From contig NZ_JAGDWX010000020.1 of assembly GCF_023256195.1 (NCBI RefSeq), forward strand, positions 1 through 34,931: a stretch of DNA of 34,931 nucleotides, given 5' to 3'. Source of the DNA: Acidithiobacillus sp. GTDB lineage: Bacteria > Pseudomonadota > Gammaproteobacteria > Acidithiobacillales > Acidithiobacillaceae. The notes beneath the pieces are model-generated. The model saw nothing but the letters and a program-made list of their open reading frames with translations, made no database searches and was not told where the DNA came from. This document shows, one piece after another, positions 18,194 through 27,090 of this stretch; position 1 is the stretch's first letter, and the number at the start of each line of letters is the position of its first letter. A program made the translations under genes and the position numbers.

Positions 18194-21001
18194 TCAGTCG
18201 GATCCCCCGACACGGCTGGCATCGGGGATGTGAATGGCGTCCAGCAGAGCGCTGGACAAACGGCGGTGTTGCTTTTCCAGCTCTTCCATCTGCTGTACCC
18301 AATGCTGCCCATCCCGGTCCGCAAAAGCGGCAATGGCATCGTGATAGTCCCGATACACCGCGAGAATCCCTTGGGCTTGCGCCTCGGGTAAGCGGCAGAT
18401 ATCCCGGTAGGTTGGGCAGTTGCTGGGATCGCGCAGGGATGGCAGGTCGAGGATGGTCCAGGACTGCCGCAGGGCCTTGCGCAACACCGCGTGTTCGGTC
18501 ATCTGCTCGGCATAGATCCCCAGCAGGCTGCGCTGCCCCGTCTGCCGCAGCGGCGCGCAGCCGGATATGAGAAACTCGCGCAGAGAGGCCAGGGGCATGG
18601 GGCGGGCGATGGCATATCCCTGCAGGTAGCGCACCCCCAATACCGCCACGGCGTCACGGATGGCCGCCGTTTCCACGCCTTCGGCCACCAGCTCCACATC
18701 GAGACTGGAGCTCAACTCCAGCAGGGCCTCGACGAAATGCAGGTCGCCGGGGCGCTCCTCCAAACCCCGGACGAAGGCCTGATCCAGCTTGATCTTGTCG
18801 ATGGGTAGCTCCTTCAGACGCAGGAGCGAGGAGTACCCGCTGCCGATGTCGTCCAAAGCCAGTCGGACACCGATGGCCTTGAGATCCAGGAGATGATCCT
18901 GAGCCAGGCGTCGATCGAGGAAGTCCCCGCTCTCCAGCAGCTCGAAGACCACGCGATGAGGAGCGACCCGCTGCCCCAGCAACGTGTGCTGCACGCACTT
19001 GAGGCAGGTGACGCCGATGAGCTGAGGATCGAGGTTCACCGATACCCACAGCTCCGGGTCCAGATCGCTCAGCGCAGTCAGAGCGGCCAAGGACTGCTGC
19101 AAGATCTGCTGAGACAGGTCGAAAAGGTCGGTTTCCTGGAACTGGGGCAGGAAGTCACCAGGGGCGAGGACGGTGCCGTCCTCCCCGCGTATCCGCGCCA
19201 GCGCCTCGATCCCAACCACACGGCCCGTCTGCTGATCCCAGATGGGCTGAAACCAGGCCTCGGCACCCTGAACGCGAAAGCGTTCCCGCAGGGGGTAGAG
19301 CCGTTTGGCACTTTGGGGAGCCTCCCAGAAGGACCAAGGCCGCAGACGCTGCCCCTTTTGCTGTTTGGCGGCGAACAGAGCCTGATCCGCCTCCCGCAGC
19401 AGCTCATCCAGATTCCCCTGGGCGGAAAAGGGATAGATGCTGATCCCCATGCTGACGCCAATGTGCGCTTCTACCCCGTCGCGCAGGTGGTAAGGCTGGC
19501 GCAGGGCCCGCTGAACCTTGTCGAGAATGGGCTCCAACTCATCCAGCTGACGCAGTCCCTCCAGTATCAGGACAAACTCGTCGCCTCCCAGACGGGCGAT
19601 GGCATCGCTGCGGCGCAACTGATCGCGCAGTCGCTGGGCCACCAGCACCAAAAGGGCATCTCCCTGATCGTGGCCGTAGCGATCGTTGATGGGCTTGAAA
19701 TCGTCCAGATCCAGCATCACCACCGCCAGAAGGCGCTCGTCCGCATCGGCGCGACGTTGCGCCCGCAGCAGTTCCTCGTCCAGCGCGCGGCGATTGAGCA
19801 GATCCGTCAGCGGATCGTGGCGCGCCAGACGCTCCAAGGTCGCTTCGCGAGCCTTCTGATGGCTGGTATCGAAAAAGTGCGCGATATAGTGGCTGACCTG
19901 CCCGCTCCCGTCCTGCACAGCGGTGATGCTCAGAAACTCGGGATAGACCTCGCCATTCTTGCGGCGATTCCAGATCTCCCCTTGCCAGGCTCCCTCCAGC
20001 TCGATCTGCCGCCACATGGCCTCATAGAACTCCGCGCCCTGTTTGCCCGAATGCAGGATGGCCGGCGTCAGGCCCCGTACCTCCTCCAAGCTGTACCCGG
20101 TGACGCGGGTGAAGGCCTGATTGACCTTGACGATGCGCCTTTTCGCATCGGTGATCATGATGCCTTCCTGGGACTCGAAGGCTCGGGCCGACAAACGGAG
20201 TTCCTGTTCCTTTTCCCGAGACTGGGTCACATCCCTCTGCACCGAGACGAAATGGGTGACCTGTCCATGCGCGTCCATCACTGGGCTGATGTTGAGAGCG
20301 TTCCAGAAAGGCGTGCCGTCGCGGCGATAATTGAGGAGCTCGCCGTGAAAACCCCGACCCTCGGCAAGGGCGTTGCGCAGGCTCTGCCGCATGGCCGGAT
20401 CCGTATCGGGTCCCTGCATGAAACGGCAGTTCTTGCCCAGGATATCGTCCAGCTCATAGCCGCTGAGGCGCAGGAAGGCTGGGTTGGCGTAGACCACCCG
20501 CTGCTCGGCATCCGTGAGCAGCACGCCCTCGTCGATGGCGCGCAGGGCCGCCGCAAAGCAACGGTCCCGCCCGTCCCGTTCCTCTTCGAAGAGCACCTCG
20601 GCGATGACGGCAGCGATGCTCTCCAGAATCCGCACCTGCTCGGAATTCGGGGCGCGCTCGGTGAAACTCGACAAGGCAAAAGTGCCGAGAACATTGCCGA
20701 AACTGTTGCGGATCGGGGTGGACCAGCAGGCCAGCAGGGTGAATTCCTCAGCCAGATCCCGAAGCCCCGCCCAGCGCGGATCGCGCAAGGTTTGGCTGAC
20801 GAAGACGGAATCGTTGCGCAGCACGGCGTTGCCACAGGAGCCGCTCTCGGGCCCCGGACGCAGGCCGTCCAGACGCAGGCGCGCCGCCTCCGGAACGCTC
20901 GGCGCGGCAAAGAGGCGCAGAACCCCGTCGCCGTCCAGCAGCATGACCGAGGCCAGCGCTCCCTCCGTCAATCTCTCAGCCAAGAGACAAAGACTTTCCA
21001 C
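18194..21001 (-). CDS. GAF-LOV-PAS-GGDEF-EAL protein: predicted blue-light-responsive c-di-GMP enzyme
   Basis: A 935-residue cytosolic signalling protein. GAF (about 1-140) has ESGSCGNAV and CWSTPIRNSFGNVLGTFAL. PAS-1 (about 150-262) is a LOV domain: photoactive Cys192 in GKNCRFMQG, flavin-contact N224, N234, N237 and Q255 in LLNYRRDGTPFWNALNIS and VQRDVT. A second PAS (about 268-385) lacks this cysteine motif. GGDEF (about 390-555) has an intact GGDEF at 472-476 and an RxxD inhibitory site R463-D466. EAL (about 570-815) keeps E599, N656, E687, D717/D718, K738, E774 and Q794. A further helical segment (820-935) is unassigned. The start is GTG at 21001 with a poor ribosome site; protein-like sequence continues 29 codons upstream without a usual start codon. 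It probably makes or degrades c-di-GMP according to light and GAF input. Confidence 0.9.
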   Translation of the reverse strand: MESLCLLAERLTEGALASVMLLDGDGVLRLFAAPSVPEAARLRLDGLRPGPESGSCGNAVLRNDSVFVSQTLRDPRWAGLRDLAEEFTLLACWSTPIRNSFGNVLGTFALSSFTERAPNSEQVRILESIAAVIAEVLFEEERDGRDRCFAAALRAIDEGVLLTDAEQRVVYANPAFLRLSGYELDDILGKNCRFMQGPDTDPAMRQSLRNALAEGRGFHGELLNYRRDGTPFWNALNISPVMDAHGQVTHFVSVQRDVTQSREKEQELRLSARAFESQEGIMITDAKRRIVKVNQAFTRVTGYSLEEVRGLTPAILHSGKQGAEFYEAMWRQIELEGAWQGEIWNRRKNGEVYPEFLSITAVQDGSGQVSHYIAHFFDTSHQKAREATLERLARHDPLTDLLNRRALDEELLRAQRRADADERLLAVVMLDLDDFKPINDRYGHDQGDALLVLVAQRLRDQLRRSDAIARLGGDEFVLILEGLRQLDELEPILDKVQRALRQPYHLRDGVEAHIGVSMGISIYPFSAQGNLDELLREADQALFAAKQQKGQRLRPWSFWEAPQSAKRLYPLRERFRVQGAEAWFQPIWDQQTGRVVGIEALARIRGEDGTVLAPGDFLPQFQETDLFDLSQQILQQSLAALTALSDLDPELWVSVNLDPQLIGVTCLKCVQHTLLGQRVAPHRVVFELLESGDFLDRRLAQDHLLDLKAIGVRLALDDIGSGYSSLLRLKELPIDKIKLDQAFVRGLEERPGDLHFVEALLELSSSLDVELVAEGVETAAIRDAVAVLGVRYLQGYAIARPMPLASLREFLISGCAPLRQTGQRSLLGIYAEQMTEHAVLRKALRQSWTILDLPSLRDPSNCPTYRDICRLPEAQAQGILAVYRDYHDAIAAFADRDGQHWVQQMEELEKQHRRLSSALLDAIHIPDASRVGGSD

Positions 21002-21141: not shown

Positions 21142-21675
21142 TCAGGACGGCAGGTAGGGTGCTACGCCGAAGGTTTCGAACACGGTATCGATGGCTTGAT
21201 GCTGCGCTCCGTGGACCACGGCATCGAAGATGTCCTGATCCGTCCAGCCCAGACGGCGCAATTGCTCTACCTCTTTTGCGCCGACACTGTGTGGATCATG
21301 CACCGCTTTGAGGACATAGTCCAGAAGGGCATTTTCCCGATCTGTCAATGGACCCTGCGCCGGTTGCTTGCGCGCCTTGGCGATGGCCTCCTTGCTGAAT
21401 CCGGCATTGAGGAGCAATGCCTCATTAAACCCAATACAAAATTTGCAGTTGCCTTCTTCCGACAGGATATATCGCAACAAAGCCAAGAAATTGGCAGACA
21501 GATGCGGATGCTGACCAAAATATCCCAGATTTTGCCATTGACTGCGCAAAAGCGCGGGACTCACGCCAAAGAGCTGCAAACCTTCGGGCACTCCGCCAAA
21601 AGCTTTTTGTATCTCGCCATAGATTTGCGCTAGTTCGCCTTGTGCCTGTTCCGGAGGGGTAAGTTTTAGGTCCAT
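21142..21675 (-). CDS. AhpD-like (carboxymuconolactone decarboxylase family) protein
   Basis: A 177-residue member of the AhpD/CMD superfamily, all-helical, often thiol peroxidases or partners of them. The redox pair is C77 and C80 in EEGNCKFCIGFNEALL. In classical AhpD the motif is CxxCxxxH; here the last position is Asn84. A peroxidase-related or dehydrogenase-associated role is possible, and peroxidase activity is not assured. The ATG at 21675 is chosen over 21696 because AAAGGAG lies 9 bases upstream of it. The promoter and an overlapping inverted repeat are directly upstream. The downstream LOV-GGDEF-EAL gene starts 140 bp later on the same strand. Confidence 0.82.
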   Translation of the reverse strand: MDLKLTPPEQAQGELAQIYGEIQKAFGGVPEGLQLFGVSPALLRSQWQNLGYFGQHPHLSANFLALLRYILSEEGNCKFCIGFNEALLLNAGFSKEAIAKARKQPAQGPLTDRENALLDYVLKAVHDPHSVGAKEVEQLRRLGWTDQDIFDAVVHGAQHQAIDTVFETFGVAPYLPS

Positions 21676-21752
21676 CGCAATTTGCTCCTTTCGCATTCCG
21701 CTTAATTAGGACAACGCGGGCTGAACGCCAAGTGAGTCGGCCCGCTCTTATT

Positions 21753-21781
21753 ATCATACCGATCGGTCGGTATTTAGTCAA
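21753..21781 (-). promoter_or_regulatory. Promoter of the AhpD-like gene
   Basis: On the minus strand TTGACT (21776-21781) and TATGAT (21753-21758) are separated by exactly 17 bases; each matches the sigma-70 consensus at five positions. Transcription would start about 70 bases upstream of the ATG. It is one of the best promoter matches in the window. Confidence 0.7.
21756..21773. promoter_or_regulatory. TetR-type operator within the AhpD-like promoter
   Basis: ATACCGA at 21756-21762 and TCGGTAT at 21767-21773 form a perfect inverted repeat with a four-base centre TCGG. Size and sequence resemble operators of TetR/AcrR repressors. It fills the spacer between -35 and -10, so a bound protein would block RNA polymerase. 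No regulator gene of this family is in the window. Confidence 0.65.
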
Positions 21782-22003: not shown

Positions 22004-23542
22004 GTGACCCAGGATTTCGACATTTTAGTAGTGGGCGGGGGCATCAACGGCGCCGGTATCGCGCGGGATGCCGCCGGACGCGGTCTCAGCGTGGCGCTGG
22101 TGGAACAGGACGATCTCGCCTCCCACACCTCGTCGGCCAGCACCAAGCTCATTCACGGCGGGCTTCGTTATCTGGAGTACTACGAATTTCGTCTGGTTCG
22201 CGAGGCGCTCATGGAACGCGAACGCCTGTTGGCCATCGCGCCGCACATCATCTGGCCATTGGAGTTTGTGCTCCCGGAGGGACCGGGCAGCCGCTCCCGC
22301 TGGAAAATCCGTGCCGGCCTGTGGCTCTACGATCATCTTGCCCCGCGCCAGACCCTGCCGGCATCCAAGCCGCTTCGCTTTGGGCCGCATCCGGCAGCCG
22401 AGGTGCTTCAGAGCAGCTACCGGCACGGATTCAGCTACTCCGACTGCTGGGTAGAGGATAGCCGCCTGGTGGTATTGAACGCCATGGACGCCGCTGCCCA
22501 CGGCGCGCAGATCCTGACCCGCACCCGCCTCGAAAAAGCCTCGGCGGAAGGCGGCCGCTGGCGTGCTCAGTTGCGGCATCGCGGTGATGGCCACGGCAGT
22601 GAGATCAGCGCTCGCGTCCTCGTCAACGCCGCGGGCCCTTGGGTGGGGGACGTCCTCCACGGCCCACTGGGACTGCAAACGGACAAGACCGTGCGCAAGG
22701 TCAAGGGCAGCCACATCATCGTACCGCGGCTCTATGAGGGCGAGTTCGCCTTTATCCTGCAAAACCCGGATAAACGCATCGTTTTTGCCATCCCTTACGA
22801 GCACCGATTCACTCTCATCGGCACCACCGACATCCCCTATGAAGGGGATCCAGCATCCCTGACCATCTCCGCCGAAGAAACCCAGTACCTCTGCGACAGC
22901 GTCAACCGCTATTTCCGCCGCGCCGTACATCCAGAAGACGTGGTGCGCAGCTATGCCGGCGTCCGTCCCCTGTACGACGATCACGCCGCCAACGCCTCGG
23001 CCGTCACCCGCGATTACGTCCTCGACCTGCAGGACGACGGACACCCGCCACTTCTGTCCGTATTCGGTGGCAAGATCACCACTTATCGTCGTCTGGCGGA
23101 ACACGCGCTGAGCCTGCTACAACCCGTTCTGCAGTTTGCGGACAGGGCTCCCTGGACCGCGTCCCGTGCCCTGCCGGGAGGGGATCTGGGCGGGCGTACC
23201 TTTGCCGACTTCGCCCACGACCTTGGCCAGCGCTATCCATTCCTCGCGCCGGAGCTTGCTTGGCGCTTAGCGCGAGCCTACGGCAGCCGCGCTGAGCTCT
23301 GGCTCCGGGGAGCCCAAAGTTTGGGTGACCTGGGCGTGGATTTCGGAGGCGGCCTGACCCAGGCCGAGGTGGACTACCTCTGTGACCAGGAATTCGCCCA
23401 GGAAGCCGAGGATATCCTCTGGCGTCGTTCCAAATTGGCCTTGCACCTGCCCGAGGAATCGGGCGTGCGATTGGCGCAGTATCTGCGCGCTCGGAAAGAA
23501 GGAAAGGAGAACCATCCAACTACCAGGCAACGACGGGGTTGA
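22004..23542 (+). CDS. glpD: Aerobic glycerol-3-phosphate dehydrogenase
   Basis: A 512-residue FAD-dependent, membrane-associated dehydrogenase oxidising sn-glycerol 3-phosphate to DHAP and passing electrons to quinone. The FAD-binding VVGGGINGAGIARDAAGRG is at the N terminus, followed by SSASTKLIHGGLRYLE, NAAGPWVGD, TLIGTTDIPYEGDP, RSYAGVRPLYDD and FGGKITTYRRLAEHAL; the C-terminal DAO_C domain ends the protein. The length is normal. GTG at 22004 has a G-rich ribosome site (21993-22000). It is the first gene of the glpD-glpK-glpF-dhaK-dhaL-dhaM operon. Confidence 0.95.
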   Translation: MTQDFDILVVGGGINGAGIARDAAGRGLSVALVEQDDLASHTSSASTKLIHGGLRYLEYYEFRLVREALMERERLLAIAPHIIWPLEFVLPEGPGSRSRWKIRAGLWLYDHLAPRQTLPASKPLRFGPHPAAEVLQSSYRHGFSYSDCWVEDSRLVVLNAMDAAAHGAQILTRTRLEKASAEGGRWRAQLRHRGDGHGSEISARVLVNAAGPWVGDVLHGPLGLQTDKTVRKVKGSHIIVPRLYEGEFAFILQNPDKRIVFAIPYEHRFTLIGTTDIPYEGDPASLTISAEETQYLCDSVNRYFRRAVHPEDVVRSYAGVRPLYDDHAANASAVTRDYVLDLQDDGHPPLLSVFGGKITTYRRLAEHALSLLQPVLQFADRAPWTASRALPGGDLGGRTFADFAHDLGQRYPFLAPELAWRLARAYGSRAELWLRGAQSLGDLGVDFGGGLTQAEVDYLCDQEFAQEAEDILWRRSKLALHLPEESGVRLAQYLRARKEGKENHPTTRQRRG

Positions 23543-23549
23543 ACCCCGT
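23533..23549 (+). other. Hairpin at the glpD-glpK junction
   Basis: ACGGGG (23533-23538) pairs with CCCCGT (23544-23549) around TTGAA; the glpD stop codon lies in the loop and the glpK Shine-Dalgarno AAGGAG starts two bases later. No T tract follows. It may influence glpK translation or mRNA processing. Confidence 0.4.
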
Positions 23550-23563
23550 GAAGGAGCGGTATC

Positions 23564-25066
23564 GTGTCCGATCAATTTGTGGGAGCCATCGACCAAGGAA
23601 CCACCAGTACCCGCTTCATGGTCTTCGACCGCCAGGGCAAGGTCATCACCTCGGCGCAGAAAGAGCACAAGCAGATCTATCCCCAACCCGGCTGGGTCGA
23701 GCACGACCCCATGGAAATCCTGGACAACACCAATGAGGTCATCGGCGCCGCCCTGGCACGGGCCAAACTGAGCGCCGAGAACCTGCTGGCCGTGGGCATC
23801 ACCAACCAGCGGGAAACCACCGTGCTCTGGGACCGCCATAGCGGTGTGCCGCTGACCAATGCTCTGGTGTGGATGGATACCCGCAACGACGCCTTGGTGC
23901 AGCGTTTCGCCCGAGACGGCGGCCAGGATCGCTACCGAGAGCGCACCGGCCTGCCGCTGGCCACATACTTTTCCGGGCTCAAGCTCGCCTGGATCCTAGA
24001 GAATGTTCCAGGTGCTCGTGCCGCCGTGGAGCGGGGCGACGCCCTCTTTGGCAACATCAACACCTGGCTAGCCTGGCAGCTCACCGGCGGACCCAAGGGG
24101 GGGCGCCATATCACCGATGTCAGCAATGCCAGTCGCACCATGCTCATGGATCTCGCCAGCTGTCGCTGGGACCCCGACCTGCTCCAAGATTTCCGGATCC
24201 CGGCGGAGTGCCTGCCTGAGATCCTGCCCTCTTCCATGGTCTACGGCGAGATGTGCTGTGCCCCCCTGCGCGGCACCCCCCTGGCGGGCATGCTCGGCGA
24301 CCAGCAGGCAGCGCTTTTCGGCCAGACCTGCTTCCGCCCCGGCGCGGCCAAGAATACCTATGGCACCGGCTCCTTTCTGCTCATGAACACCGGCACGGAA
24401 CTGGTACGCTCCAAGGCCGGCCTGCTCTCCACCGTCGCCTACCAGCTGGCCCAGCAAGCGCCGGTCTATGCCCTGGAGGGTGCCATCGCCATCACCGGCG
24501 CCCTGGTGCAGTGGCTGCGGGACAACCTGCGCCTCTTTGACGTCGCCGGCCAGATCGAACCCCTGGCCCGCAGCGTTCCGGACAACGGCGACGTGTACTT
24601 CGTGCCCGCCTTTTCCGGTCTCTATGCGCCTTACTGGCGGGACGATGCCCGCGGCATCATCGCCGGCCTCACCCGCTTTGCCACCAAGGCCCACATCGCC
24701 CGCGCGGCGCTGGAATCCACCGCCTACCAGGTGCGCGATGTGGTGGAGGCGATGGAGCAGGACAGCGGCATTCCCCTGCGACGCCTGCGCAGCGACGGCG
24801 GCATGGTGGTCAACGAACTGCTTATGCAGTTTCAGGCGGACATCCTGGCCAAGCCGGTGATCCGGCCCAAGATGATCGAGACCACGGCCCTGGGCTCCGC
24901 CTACGCCGCCGGACTCGCCGTCGGCTACTGGAAAAGCCTGGACGACCTGCAAAGCAACTGGGGTGTGGACCGAGAATGGGAACCGGCCATGGCCGAGTCC
25001 GAGCGCACCCGTCTCTACCGTTCCTGGAAGAAGGCGGTGGAAAGGTCCTTTGCCTGGGTGGAGTGA
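23564..25066 (+). CDS. glpK: Glycerol kinase
   Basis: A 500-residue FGGY-family kinase forming sn-glycerol 3-phosphate from glycerol and ATP. Clear signatures: [18 protein letters not shown] (phosphate 1 loop), [22 protein letters not shown], the glycerol-binding [10 protein letters not shown] region, [48 protein letters not shown] and [19 protein letters not shown]. Length matches GlpK (about 500). GTG at 23564 has AAGGAG seven bases upstream. It would act on glycerol brought in by GlpF and feed GlpD. Confidence 0.97.
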
Positions 25067-25087
25067 GAGACGAGGAGGAAAACCATC

Positions 25088-26086
25088 ATGGCAACACATG
25101 CAGATCCACTCTATGGCGTCAAAACCGGCTGGCGCGCCGAATCCATCTGGTCGGAGATGCTCGCCGAATTCTTTGGGTGCTTCGTTCTGCTCGCCTTTGG
25201 CGCCGGCTGCGTCGCGGTGGCAGTGGTTGGTCTGACGGAATCCGATCGTACCCTGGTGATCTTCCAGGGCGCCGGTGGTTGGATGCTCATCGTCTGGGGC
25301 TGGGCCTTTGCGGTGATCATGGCCATCTACGTGGCAGGCGGGGTGACCGGCGCACACATCAATCCCGCCGTCACCCTCGCCTTTGCCATCAAAGGGGATT
25401 TCCCCTGGCGCAAGGTCCTCCCCTATTGGATTGCCCAGGTTGCCGGCTGCTTCATGGGCGCGGCCATCGTCTTTCTCGACTACTTCAAGGCCATCAACGC
25501 CTGGAATCTGGCCCACCACGTAGCCAGTCGCGCCGACCCTTCCGGCATGACCACCTTCAGCATCTTTGCCACCTTCCCGGCGGCCTACTACCAGAACCAG
25601 ATGGGTCTCGCCCTCCTGGATCAGGTTATCGCCACCTTCTTTCTGGTGCTCTTCGTCTTCGCCATCATCGACAACATGAACGTGGGACCGAGGTCCAATC
25701 TGGCGCCGTTCATGGTAGGCCTGGCCGTTGCCGCCATCGGTGCCTCCTTCGGTACCGGCACGGGCTATGCCATCAATCCGGCCCGCGACTTCGGGCCGCG
25801 CCTCTTCTGCTGGCTGGCGGGCTGGGGGCCCAATGCCTTCCCCGGCCCTCACGGTTACTGGTGGGTGCCCGTCCTGGGTCCCTTGATTGGTGCGAGCATC
25901 GCGGTTTTCGCCTACGATTGGTTCATCAGCCGCACGCTCTGCGCCCGCGCCAAGCTGCTTCAGGAACGGCAGCCCCACGTCGAGCAGCACGGCCTCGGCT
26001 TCAAGCTGGAGAAGCTGCAGACGGCGCTGGAGGAGGTCCGCAAGGAAGTGGACGCGCGCAAGGCAAAGGAAGGAGCATCGCAATGA
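25088..26086 (+). CDS. glpF: Glycerol uptake facilitator (aquaglyceroporin)
   Basis: A 332-residue MIP-family channel of the inner membrane with six transmembrane helices and two half-helices. The NPA boxes are at 92-94 (GAHINPAVT) and 230-232 ([13 protein letters not shown]); Asp234 after NPAR marks the glycerol-conducting branch. E. coli GlpF has about 280 residues; this one has an additional charged C-terminal tail (about 290-332, [20 protein letters not shown]) that could form a cytoplasmic coiled coil. The ATG at 25088 has GAGGA upstream, and the stop overlaps the dhaK start. Confidence 0.95.
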
Positions 26087-27090
26087 AAGCCCTCATCAAT
26101 CGGCCCGAAGACATCGTCCGGGAAGCCCTGGAAGGCATGGCCCTGGCCCACGCCGACCTCATCCGGGTGGAGCAGGATCCGCGCTTCGTCCTACGCGCGG
26201 ACGCTCCGGTGCAAGGTAAGGTCGCCCTCGTTTCCGGCGGCGGCTCCGGGCACGAACCCATGCACGGTGGTTTGGTGGGCCCCGGCATGCTGGACGCGGC
26301 TTGCCCCGGCGAGGTCTTCACCAGCCCCACGCCGGATCAGATCGTTGCCGCCGCCCAGGCCGTGCACGGCGGTGCCGGCGTACTGCTCATCGTCAAGAAC
26401 TACACGGGCGACGTGCTCAACTTCCAGATGGCCACAGAGCTCCTGGCCGACGCCGGCATCCCCACGGAGACGGTACTCATGGACGATGACGTGGCCGTTA
26501 CCGACTCCCTCTACACCGCCGGTCGCCGCGGTGTGGGCGCCACGGTGCTGGCAGAGAAGATCTGCGGTGCCGCCGCAGCAGCCGGCCTGCCCCTGGCGCA
26601 GGTCGCCCGCATCGGCCGCGAGGTCAACGCGTCGGCCCGCTCCATGGGCCTGGCCCTCAGCCCCTGCACCAACCCCCAGGCGGGCCAGGCCAGCTTCACC
26701 CTCAAAGACGACGAGGTCGAGTTCGGGATCGGCATCCACGGCGAACCGGGGCGCAGCCGCATCCCCATGGCGTCAGCGGATACACTGACACAGATGCTCC
26801 TGGAGCCTATCCTGCAGGATCTGCCCTTTGCGCGCGGCGATGAGGTACTGCTGTTCACGGACAGCCTGGGCGCTACTCCACTGCTGGAACTCTACATCGT
26901 CCACCGCGCCGCCGAGCAGCTCGCCAACCAGCACGGCCTCAAGGTGAGTCGTCGTCTGATAGGCCCCCTCATGACCAGTCTGGACATGGCCGGTGTGGCC
27001 CTCACCCTGTTACGCCTCACCCCGGAGTTACGGGGCTACTGGGATGCACCGGTGCGCACACCGGCGCTGTGCTGGGGTCTAGCGCGATGA
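26083..27090 (+). CDS. dhaK: Dihydroxyacetone kinase subunit DhaK
   Basis: A 335-residue DHA-binding subunit of the PEP-dependent dihydroxyacetone kinase. His219 in GIGIHGEPG binds the DHA carbonyl covalently; His57 in SGGGSGHEP and Asp110 in KNYTGD are the catalytic pair equivalent to those of the E. coli enzyme. The length is that of PTS-type DhaK; ATP-dependent kinases are single chains of about 550-600 residues. The ATG at 26083 overlaps the glpF stop (ATGA) and is preceded by AGGAGC. Phosphate arrives via ADP bound to DhaL. Confidence 0.95.

Follow-up and report, generated by a model that had tools for sequence, protein, structure and literature searches.

A palindrome in the promoter of an Acidithiobacillus AhpD-like gene as the likely operator of a trans-encoded NemR/AcuR-like TetR repressor

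Introduction

Several TetR-family repressors with stress-related or metabolic targets have been described. For Escherichia coli NemR, a regulatory sulfenamide switch involving Cys106 and Lys175 has been reported (PMC5297802). In Rhodobacter sphaeroides, the AcuR operator (acuR-acuI-dddL) is described as overlapping the promoter and the acuR mRNA as leaderless, and AhpD-family genes lie beside some acuR-like genes (PMC3017554). AltR of Pantoea ananatis is a NemR-related TetR protein with a key cysteine, Cys100, and promoter-overlapping inverted repeats at several genes of its cluster (PMC13178969). The allicin-resistance cluster of Pseudomonas combines AhpD and an old yellow enzyme (OYE) with tetR, and most of the resistance is attributed to AhpD (PMC7119367). 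In Stenotrophomonas maltophilia, the thiol-responsive TetR protein DitR controls an MFS exporter operon from a single operator box, placed between the -35 and -10 elements (PMC9342713). In these accounts, the four repressors NemR, AcuR, AltR and DitR are released by thiol chemistry or by a ligand, and their operators lie on or in promoters.

Here, we describe a palindrome in the promoter of an AhpD-like gene of Acidithiobacillus sp. It lies in a contig stretch of 34,931 bp, referred to below as the window, and had been singled out from the sequence of the window as a TetR-type operator.

Results

A palindrome overlaps the promoter of an AhpD-like gene

The minus-strand promoter TTGACT-17 bp-TATGAT matches the consensus at 10 of 12 positions (Table 1); a scan of 1601 bp gave one promoter of this quality, where shuffled sequence gave 0.3 on average. 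Of the 17 spacer bases, 15 (21759-21773) lie within the palindrome, as do the three leading bases of the -10 hexamer. The original prediction, that an 18 bp repeat fits exactly into the 17 bp spacer, was correct in placing a perfect 7-4-7 repeat on the promoter, but the repeat is longer than the spacer and extends into the -10 hexamer.

The palindrome by itself is unremarkable and proves nothing, since the window has nine perfect 7-4-7 repeats, compared with a mean of 4.3 and a maximum of 8 in 30 first-order Markov simulations. At ≤3 mismatches the specific motif occurs once in the window, and at least once in 33 of 100 shuffled windows. It is the comparative evidence, namely a copy at a tetR promoter and conservation at orthologous genes, that marks the palindrome as a putative operator and supports its assignment to the TetR type. 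The AhpD-like gene also has a GC-rich hairpin in its 5ʹ leader (21716-21745, minus strand); a similar pair of arms, changed on both sides, occurs in a sister species (genome G001), in which the minimum-energy fold differs.

Table 1. Features of the AhpD-like locus, the candidate regulator, and predicted operator sites that recur in the sister species.
Feature	Position	Strand	Basis or remark
Operator ATACCGATCGGTCGGTAT, ATACCGA-TCGG-TCGGTAT	21756..21773		Perfect 7-bp arms, 4-bp centre
-35 hexamer TTGACT	21776..21781	minus (21781-21776)	Promoter scan; TTGA here in 13/13 site-bearing orthologues
-10 hexamer TATGAT	21753..21758	minus (21758-21753)	Promoter scan; 3 bp overlapped by operator
AhpD-like gene, CxxC = CKFC	21142..21675	minus	Likely start ATG 21675; longest frame from 21696
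Ribosome binding site AGGAG of AhpD-like gene	21685..21689	minus (21689-21685)	Read from sequence
Candidate regulator P0002 (C22 TetR), 204 aa	C22 1872-2486		PF00440 TetR_N
Recurring site: ahpD	window		Gene family search and G001 alignment
Recurring site: tetR	C22		Gene family search and G001 alignment
Recurring site: dienelactone hydrolase and OYE	after C22 tetR		
Recurring site: second OYE	C28:61370		
Recurring site: nitroreductase	C8:82563		
Recurring site: hydroxyacid dehydrogenase, then short-chain dehydrogenase	C21:38910		
Recurring site: MFS exporter	C28:86506		
Recurring site: outer-membrane efflux protein	C35:1077		

The likely regulator is encoded on another contig

The original prediction noted no regulator near the palindrome, proposed that one acts from elsewhere, and called for a genome scan for the same repeat and adjacent TetR genes. 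The genome comprises 1.98 Mb on 37 contigs, and in it a search for the motif ATACCGANNNNTCGGTAT found two perfect copies; when up to 2 mismatches were allowed, it found 13 sites, whereas the reversed control motif gave 2. The other perfect copy is at C22:1842-1859, 12 bp 5ʹ of a tetR gene whose promoter reads GTTGACAAA-operator-TATTAA; the TTGAC-operator arrangement is common to this promoter and that of ahpD. A domain search of the whole genome found two TetR_N genes only, on contigs C12 and C22, and none in the window. We therefore rejected a window-encoded regulator, in agreement with the prediction, yet a related TetR gene does adjoin ahpD in 32 distant loci (see below). Because the promoter of the C22 tetR gene holds the only other perfect operator in the genome, the C22 TetR is most probably the regulator of the window operator, and we consider this sequence-based assignment to be strong.

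The C22 protein scores 43.8 to 46.5 bits against PF00440, over the cut-off of 24, and its C-terminal domain is TetR_C_13. Its best NCBIfam model is AcuR (NF051457), at 93.1 bits, under the equivalog cut-off of 247. Its closest fold neighbours are tied: 3bru (Z 19.9, rmsd 2.5, 190 aligned), PA2196 (4l62, Z 19.6) and NemR (4yze, Z 19.4, rmsd 2.1, 186 aligned). Identity to E. coli NemR is 20%; in the alignment, NemR Cys106 and Lys175 correspond to Cys111 and Lys180, which are invariant in 9 aligned rows and in 21 family rows. We classify the predicted protein as NemR/AcuR-like.

The C22 tetR gene is followed by an operator-like GTACCGAGCGGTCGGTAG (2527-2544) and by two genes whose products match PF01738 (dienelactone hydrolase) and PF00724 (old yellow enzyme). 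No acuI or DMSP lyase gene was seen beside it in a 6-kb stretch. The -10 hexamer of C22 tetR lies about 10 bases before the ATG (L005:1834-1872), so that the transcript, like the one reported for acuR, probably has no leader. The C12 TetR gene (G000:C12:125158-125793; L016:1453-2088) lies just 5ʹ of an argB-like frame and has GACCGGTTGGTCGGTC upstream.

The operator is conserved at tetR and ahpD in Acidithiobacillaceae

We compared 29 genomes of the Acidithiobacillaceae (Acidithiobacillus and Igneacidithiobacillus). A match to the C22 tetR gene was found in 27, comprising 26 clear orthologues (66-100% identity) and a distant match in G019 (27%). All 26 orthologues have the operator at ≤2 mismatches within 150 bp upstream. 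For ahpD, the operator is present at ≤3 mismatches in 13 of the 14 close orthologues (≥66% identity), and at ≤2 mismatches in 10; these counts exclude the G019 match, which is in two broken pieces, and the distant homologues L042-L045. At the same limits, 200 permuted palindromes gave means of 0.025 for tetR and 0.115 for ahpD, with maxima of 2 and 4. Every conserved operator, at tetR and ahpD orthologues alike, is preceded by a TTGA -35 element. The original prediction had staked its case on the repeat being kept upstream of orthologous genes in relatives, and these counts bear it out.

The exception among close ahpD orthologues is G025, an assembly that is 96% complete with 5% contamination. 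It lacks the ahpD operator and has no tetR match either, a joint absence that is suggestive only; the site at its second OYE gene is retained even though tetR was not found. In a second ahpD group (40-46% identity), ATACCGACTAGTCTGTAT is present in 8 of 11 loci. One family genome, G011, retains paralogues of tetR and ahpD side by side, with a site at 3 mismatches. In the window's genus and genus g4, nine genomes have a tetR orthologue, and each carries a further copy of the operator 3ʹ of that gene.

The likely regulator and its target are adjacent in distant relatives

A profile search of genome contigs with the ahpD alignment gave 57 loci. We examined 55, the other two being the partial matches L227 and L228, and sorted 38 as outside Acidithiobacillaceae. 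A TetR gene lies directly 5ʹ of ahpD on the same strand in 32 of these 38, and 31 of the 32 encoded proteins are 43-51% identical to the C22 TetR (the remaining one, 24%). A site at ≤2 mismatches is present in 27 of the 32 adjacent loci, between the genes in 24 and only before tetR in three; the other five have no such site. If only the 150 bp before ahpD are counted, 21 of the 32 have a site, whereas permuted palindromes averaged 0.035 and never exceeded 3. At L231, a 48% identical TetR gene adjoins ahpD with a 3-mismatch site; the distant homologues L042 and L232-L234 have no such operator near ahpD.

Hence, as judged from these comparisons, regulator and target are adjacent elsewhere and split in the genome studied here, with the operator kept. 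We infer that adjacency is the ancestral arrangement. The bacteria named as hosts of this wider set of ahpD genes are largely sulfur-cycle bacteria; they include Sulfuriferula, Sulfuricella, Parasulfuritortus, Acidiferrobacteraceae and Sulfurovum, and several of these have the tetR-ahpD pair.

Predicted sites are dispersed among genes of a putative electrophile-defence regulon

The same motif search of the sister species gave 17 sites, and 8 of the 13 sites in the window's own genome recur there in aligned DNA (Table 1). Identity over the eight sites is 98%, compared with 67% for their flanks, a difference inflated by the choice of pairs that match in both species. Some sites beyond those at tetR and ahpD have 2 mismatches. 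In other members of the family, sites occur before genes for a zinc alcohol dehydrogenase with a ChrR-type cupin, an aldo-keto reductase and a short-chain dehydrogenase (the cupin, the alcohol dehydrogenase and the aldo-keto reductase were each assigned to a family from one example); sites at the second OYE gene and at the MFS gene are likewise found in other members. The scatter of the eight recurring sites agrees with the suggestion that the operator belongs to a dispersed regulon, and the best reading of the comparisons is a predicted electrophile-defence regulon under a NemR/AcuR-like repressor, with the AhpD-like gene included.

Five sites with 2 mismatches (on C14, C17 and C19, and two on C18) were treated as background; they are absent from the G001 list and overlap mechanically listed open reading frames. 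The efflux site on C35 was left outside the core regulon: although conserved in the sister species, it may belong to the C12 TetR. A wider core pattern, ACCGACCGGTCGGT at 2 mismatches, was uninformative (23 sites versus 29 for the control).

The AhpD-like protein

The AGGAG ribosome binding site is nine bases from the ATG at 21675, which is likely to be the start rather than the ATG at 21696; in the sister species, AAGGAG likewise precedes the ahpD ATG. The protein (P0001) scores 18.6 bits against PF02627, under the Pfam gathering score of 23, and 42.1 bits against TIGR01926 (peroxidase-related enzyme), under the subfamily cut-off of 81.8. Its predicted structure (pLDDT 91.1) aligns with 2prr (Z 19.3, rmsd 2.6, 176 aligned), and the modelled protein has an AhpD fold. 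The CKFC cysteines are Cys84 and Cys87; two of 22 aligned rows are without the first. Asn91, three residues past CxxC and invariant in the 22 rows, occupies the usual place of a histidine, a place that we take from Mycobacterium tuberculosis AhpD. The protein may act as a thiol reductase on a substrate that is not peroxide. The ahpD paralogues L046 (in G008) and L039 (in G022) form a subgroup that is ~40% identical and has neither the first cysteine of CxxC nor the operator.

A gene for a GAF-PAS-PAS-GGDEF-EAL protein (18194-21001, minus) lies 3ʹ of the AhpD-like gene on the same strand, and co-transcription of the two is possible; a GAF-like frame is also found 3ʹ of ahpD in the sister species. 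A glycerol cluster (glpD, glpK and a DhaK-type kinase gene; 22004-27090, plus) begins across the ahpD promoter. Its long kinase frame has about 370 residues ahead of the DhaK match, and the kinase probably starts further in than the frame.

Discussion

We propose, with good though not full confidence, that the palindrome is the operator of a trans-encoded NemR/AcuR-like TetR repressor, the C22 protein, which would control a dispersed electrophile-defence regulon that includes ahpD. The operator, its likely regulator, their conservation and the set of sites all derive from comparison between genomes. When no inducer is present, a repressor dimer would sit across the spacer between -35 and -10 and the edge of the -10 hexamer, blocking RNA polymerase at the AhpD-like gene. 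The same repressor would act at its own promoter and at the dispersed gene set: the dienelactone hydrolase and OYE, the second OYE, the nitroreductase, the hydroxyacid and short-chain dehydrogenases, and the MFS exporter. The repressor would be released on being modified or bound by reactive electrophiles, whether quinones, enones, aldehydes or other compounds that react with thiols; this would probably involve Cys111 together with Lys180. Among the detoxifying thiol enzymes induced in this way would be the AhpD-like CxxC protein. We infer the binding, the repression, the inducer and the cysteine switch.

What would the repressor sense? Our proposal of electrophiles derives from the gene content and from the two aligned residues. 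A regulon of two OYEs, a nitroreductase, dehydrogenases, a hydrolase and an exporter suggests reactive electrophiles rather more than it does peroxide. We set aside an ordinary peroxide regulon of the OxyR/PerR type, because the form of the operator and the genes in the regulon both indicate something else. A more specific version, which we offer as a speculation with the odds well against it, is that the repressor senses sulfur electrophiles (thiosulfinate-like or sulfenylating compounds) arising from the cell's own sulfur oxidation, with the AhpD-like CxxC protein, Asn for His, as a dedicated reductase. This suggestion comes from the largely sulfur-cycle hosts of the ahpD group and from the role of AhpD as the main thiosulfinate-resistance gene in the Pseudomonas cluster.

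Other explanations of the palindrome concern chance, the protein that binds it and what that protein senses. That the repeat is a functionless product of chance would fit the number of perfect 7-4-7 repeats in the window, nine against a Markov mean of 4.3, and this count alone would not lead us to reject it; the sequence-specific conservation at 13 of 14 ahpD orthologues, 26 of 26 tetR promoters and 27 of 32 distant tetR-ahpD loci does, and leaves chance a negligible probability. Binding mainly by the C12 TetR, or by both proteins, would place ahpD in another or a mixed regulon. The C12 protein is the sole other TetR_N protein found in the genome, the repeat upstream of its gene has the same CCG-N6-CGG core, and the efflux site at C35:1077 is intermediate between the C22-type and C12-type repeats. 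However, the outer bases of the C12 repeat differ (GACCG rather than ATACCG), the arms in the window are identical to those at the C22 tetR promoter, and nearly all of the TetR proteins adjacent to ahpD (31 of 32) are 43-51% identical to the C22 protein, to which the C12 protein is only 28% identical. We consider such a role for C12 at ahpD improbable, although, given the relatedness of the two repeats, the two regulators may overlap.

We also think it improbable that the C22 TetR works like AcuR as a ligand sensor, responding to acrylate or another small metabolite, with a catabolic or metabolic regulon. AcuR gives its best NCBIfam match (93 bits), and the C22 tetR mRNA also seems to be leaderless; AcuR itself is described as combining release by acrylate, a promoter-overlapping operator, a leaderless mRNA and AhpD-family genes near some acuR-like genes (PMC3017554). 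Nonetheless, the score is under the cut-off (247), the 6-kb stretch around C22 tetR has no acuI or lyase gene, and the targets, with two OYEs, a nitroreductase and dehydrogenases, are typical of systems that clear electrophiles. The AcuR-kind and electrophile readings overlap, since acrylate too is an electrophile.

If our preferred reading, a dispersed electrophile-defence regulon under the C22 TetR, is correct, an orphan palindrome becomes part of a stress regulon predicted for bioleaching acidophiles that oxidise iron and sulfur. The likely regulator can be named, the operator code is testable, and a poorly annotated AhpD-like gene gains a physiological setting. The locus also provides an example of a regulator that is beside its target in distant relatives and apart from it here, with the operator retained. 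No such regulon was found among the matches listed in our search of the literature on Acidithiobacillus, a search outside which most subscription journals fall.

How does the predicted system compare with those already described? E. coli NemR (nemRA-gloA), a TetR protein autoregulated through a short palindrome and with an adjoining OYE gene, resembles what is predicted for the C22 TetR. Upstream of nemR we read from the genome a box, TAGACCGACTGGTCTA, which is our own assignment with no cited footprint and which shares ACCGAYYGGT with the sites described here. NemR differs in its low identity (20%), in the outer bases of its operator, and in controlling one local operon with no adjoining AhpD gene. 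AcuR differs in its operator, TAATAGAC-N6-GTCTATTA, and in its inducer, acrylate, and the AcuR model score of P0002 (93 bits, cut-off 247) also sets the two apart. The AltR and allicin clusters are cluster-specific rather than dispersed, with thiosulfinates as inducer and CAATCTAC-N6-GTAGATTG as operator, and DitR has a CATAC-N5-GTATG repeat, cysteines 92 and 127, and a local operon. Thus, TetR repressors released by thiol chemistry or by ligands were already known; what is new here is the predicted dispersed regulon of Acidithiobacillaceae and its operator code.
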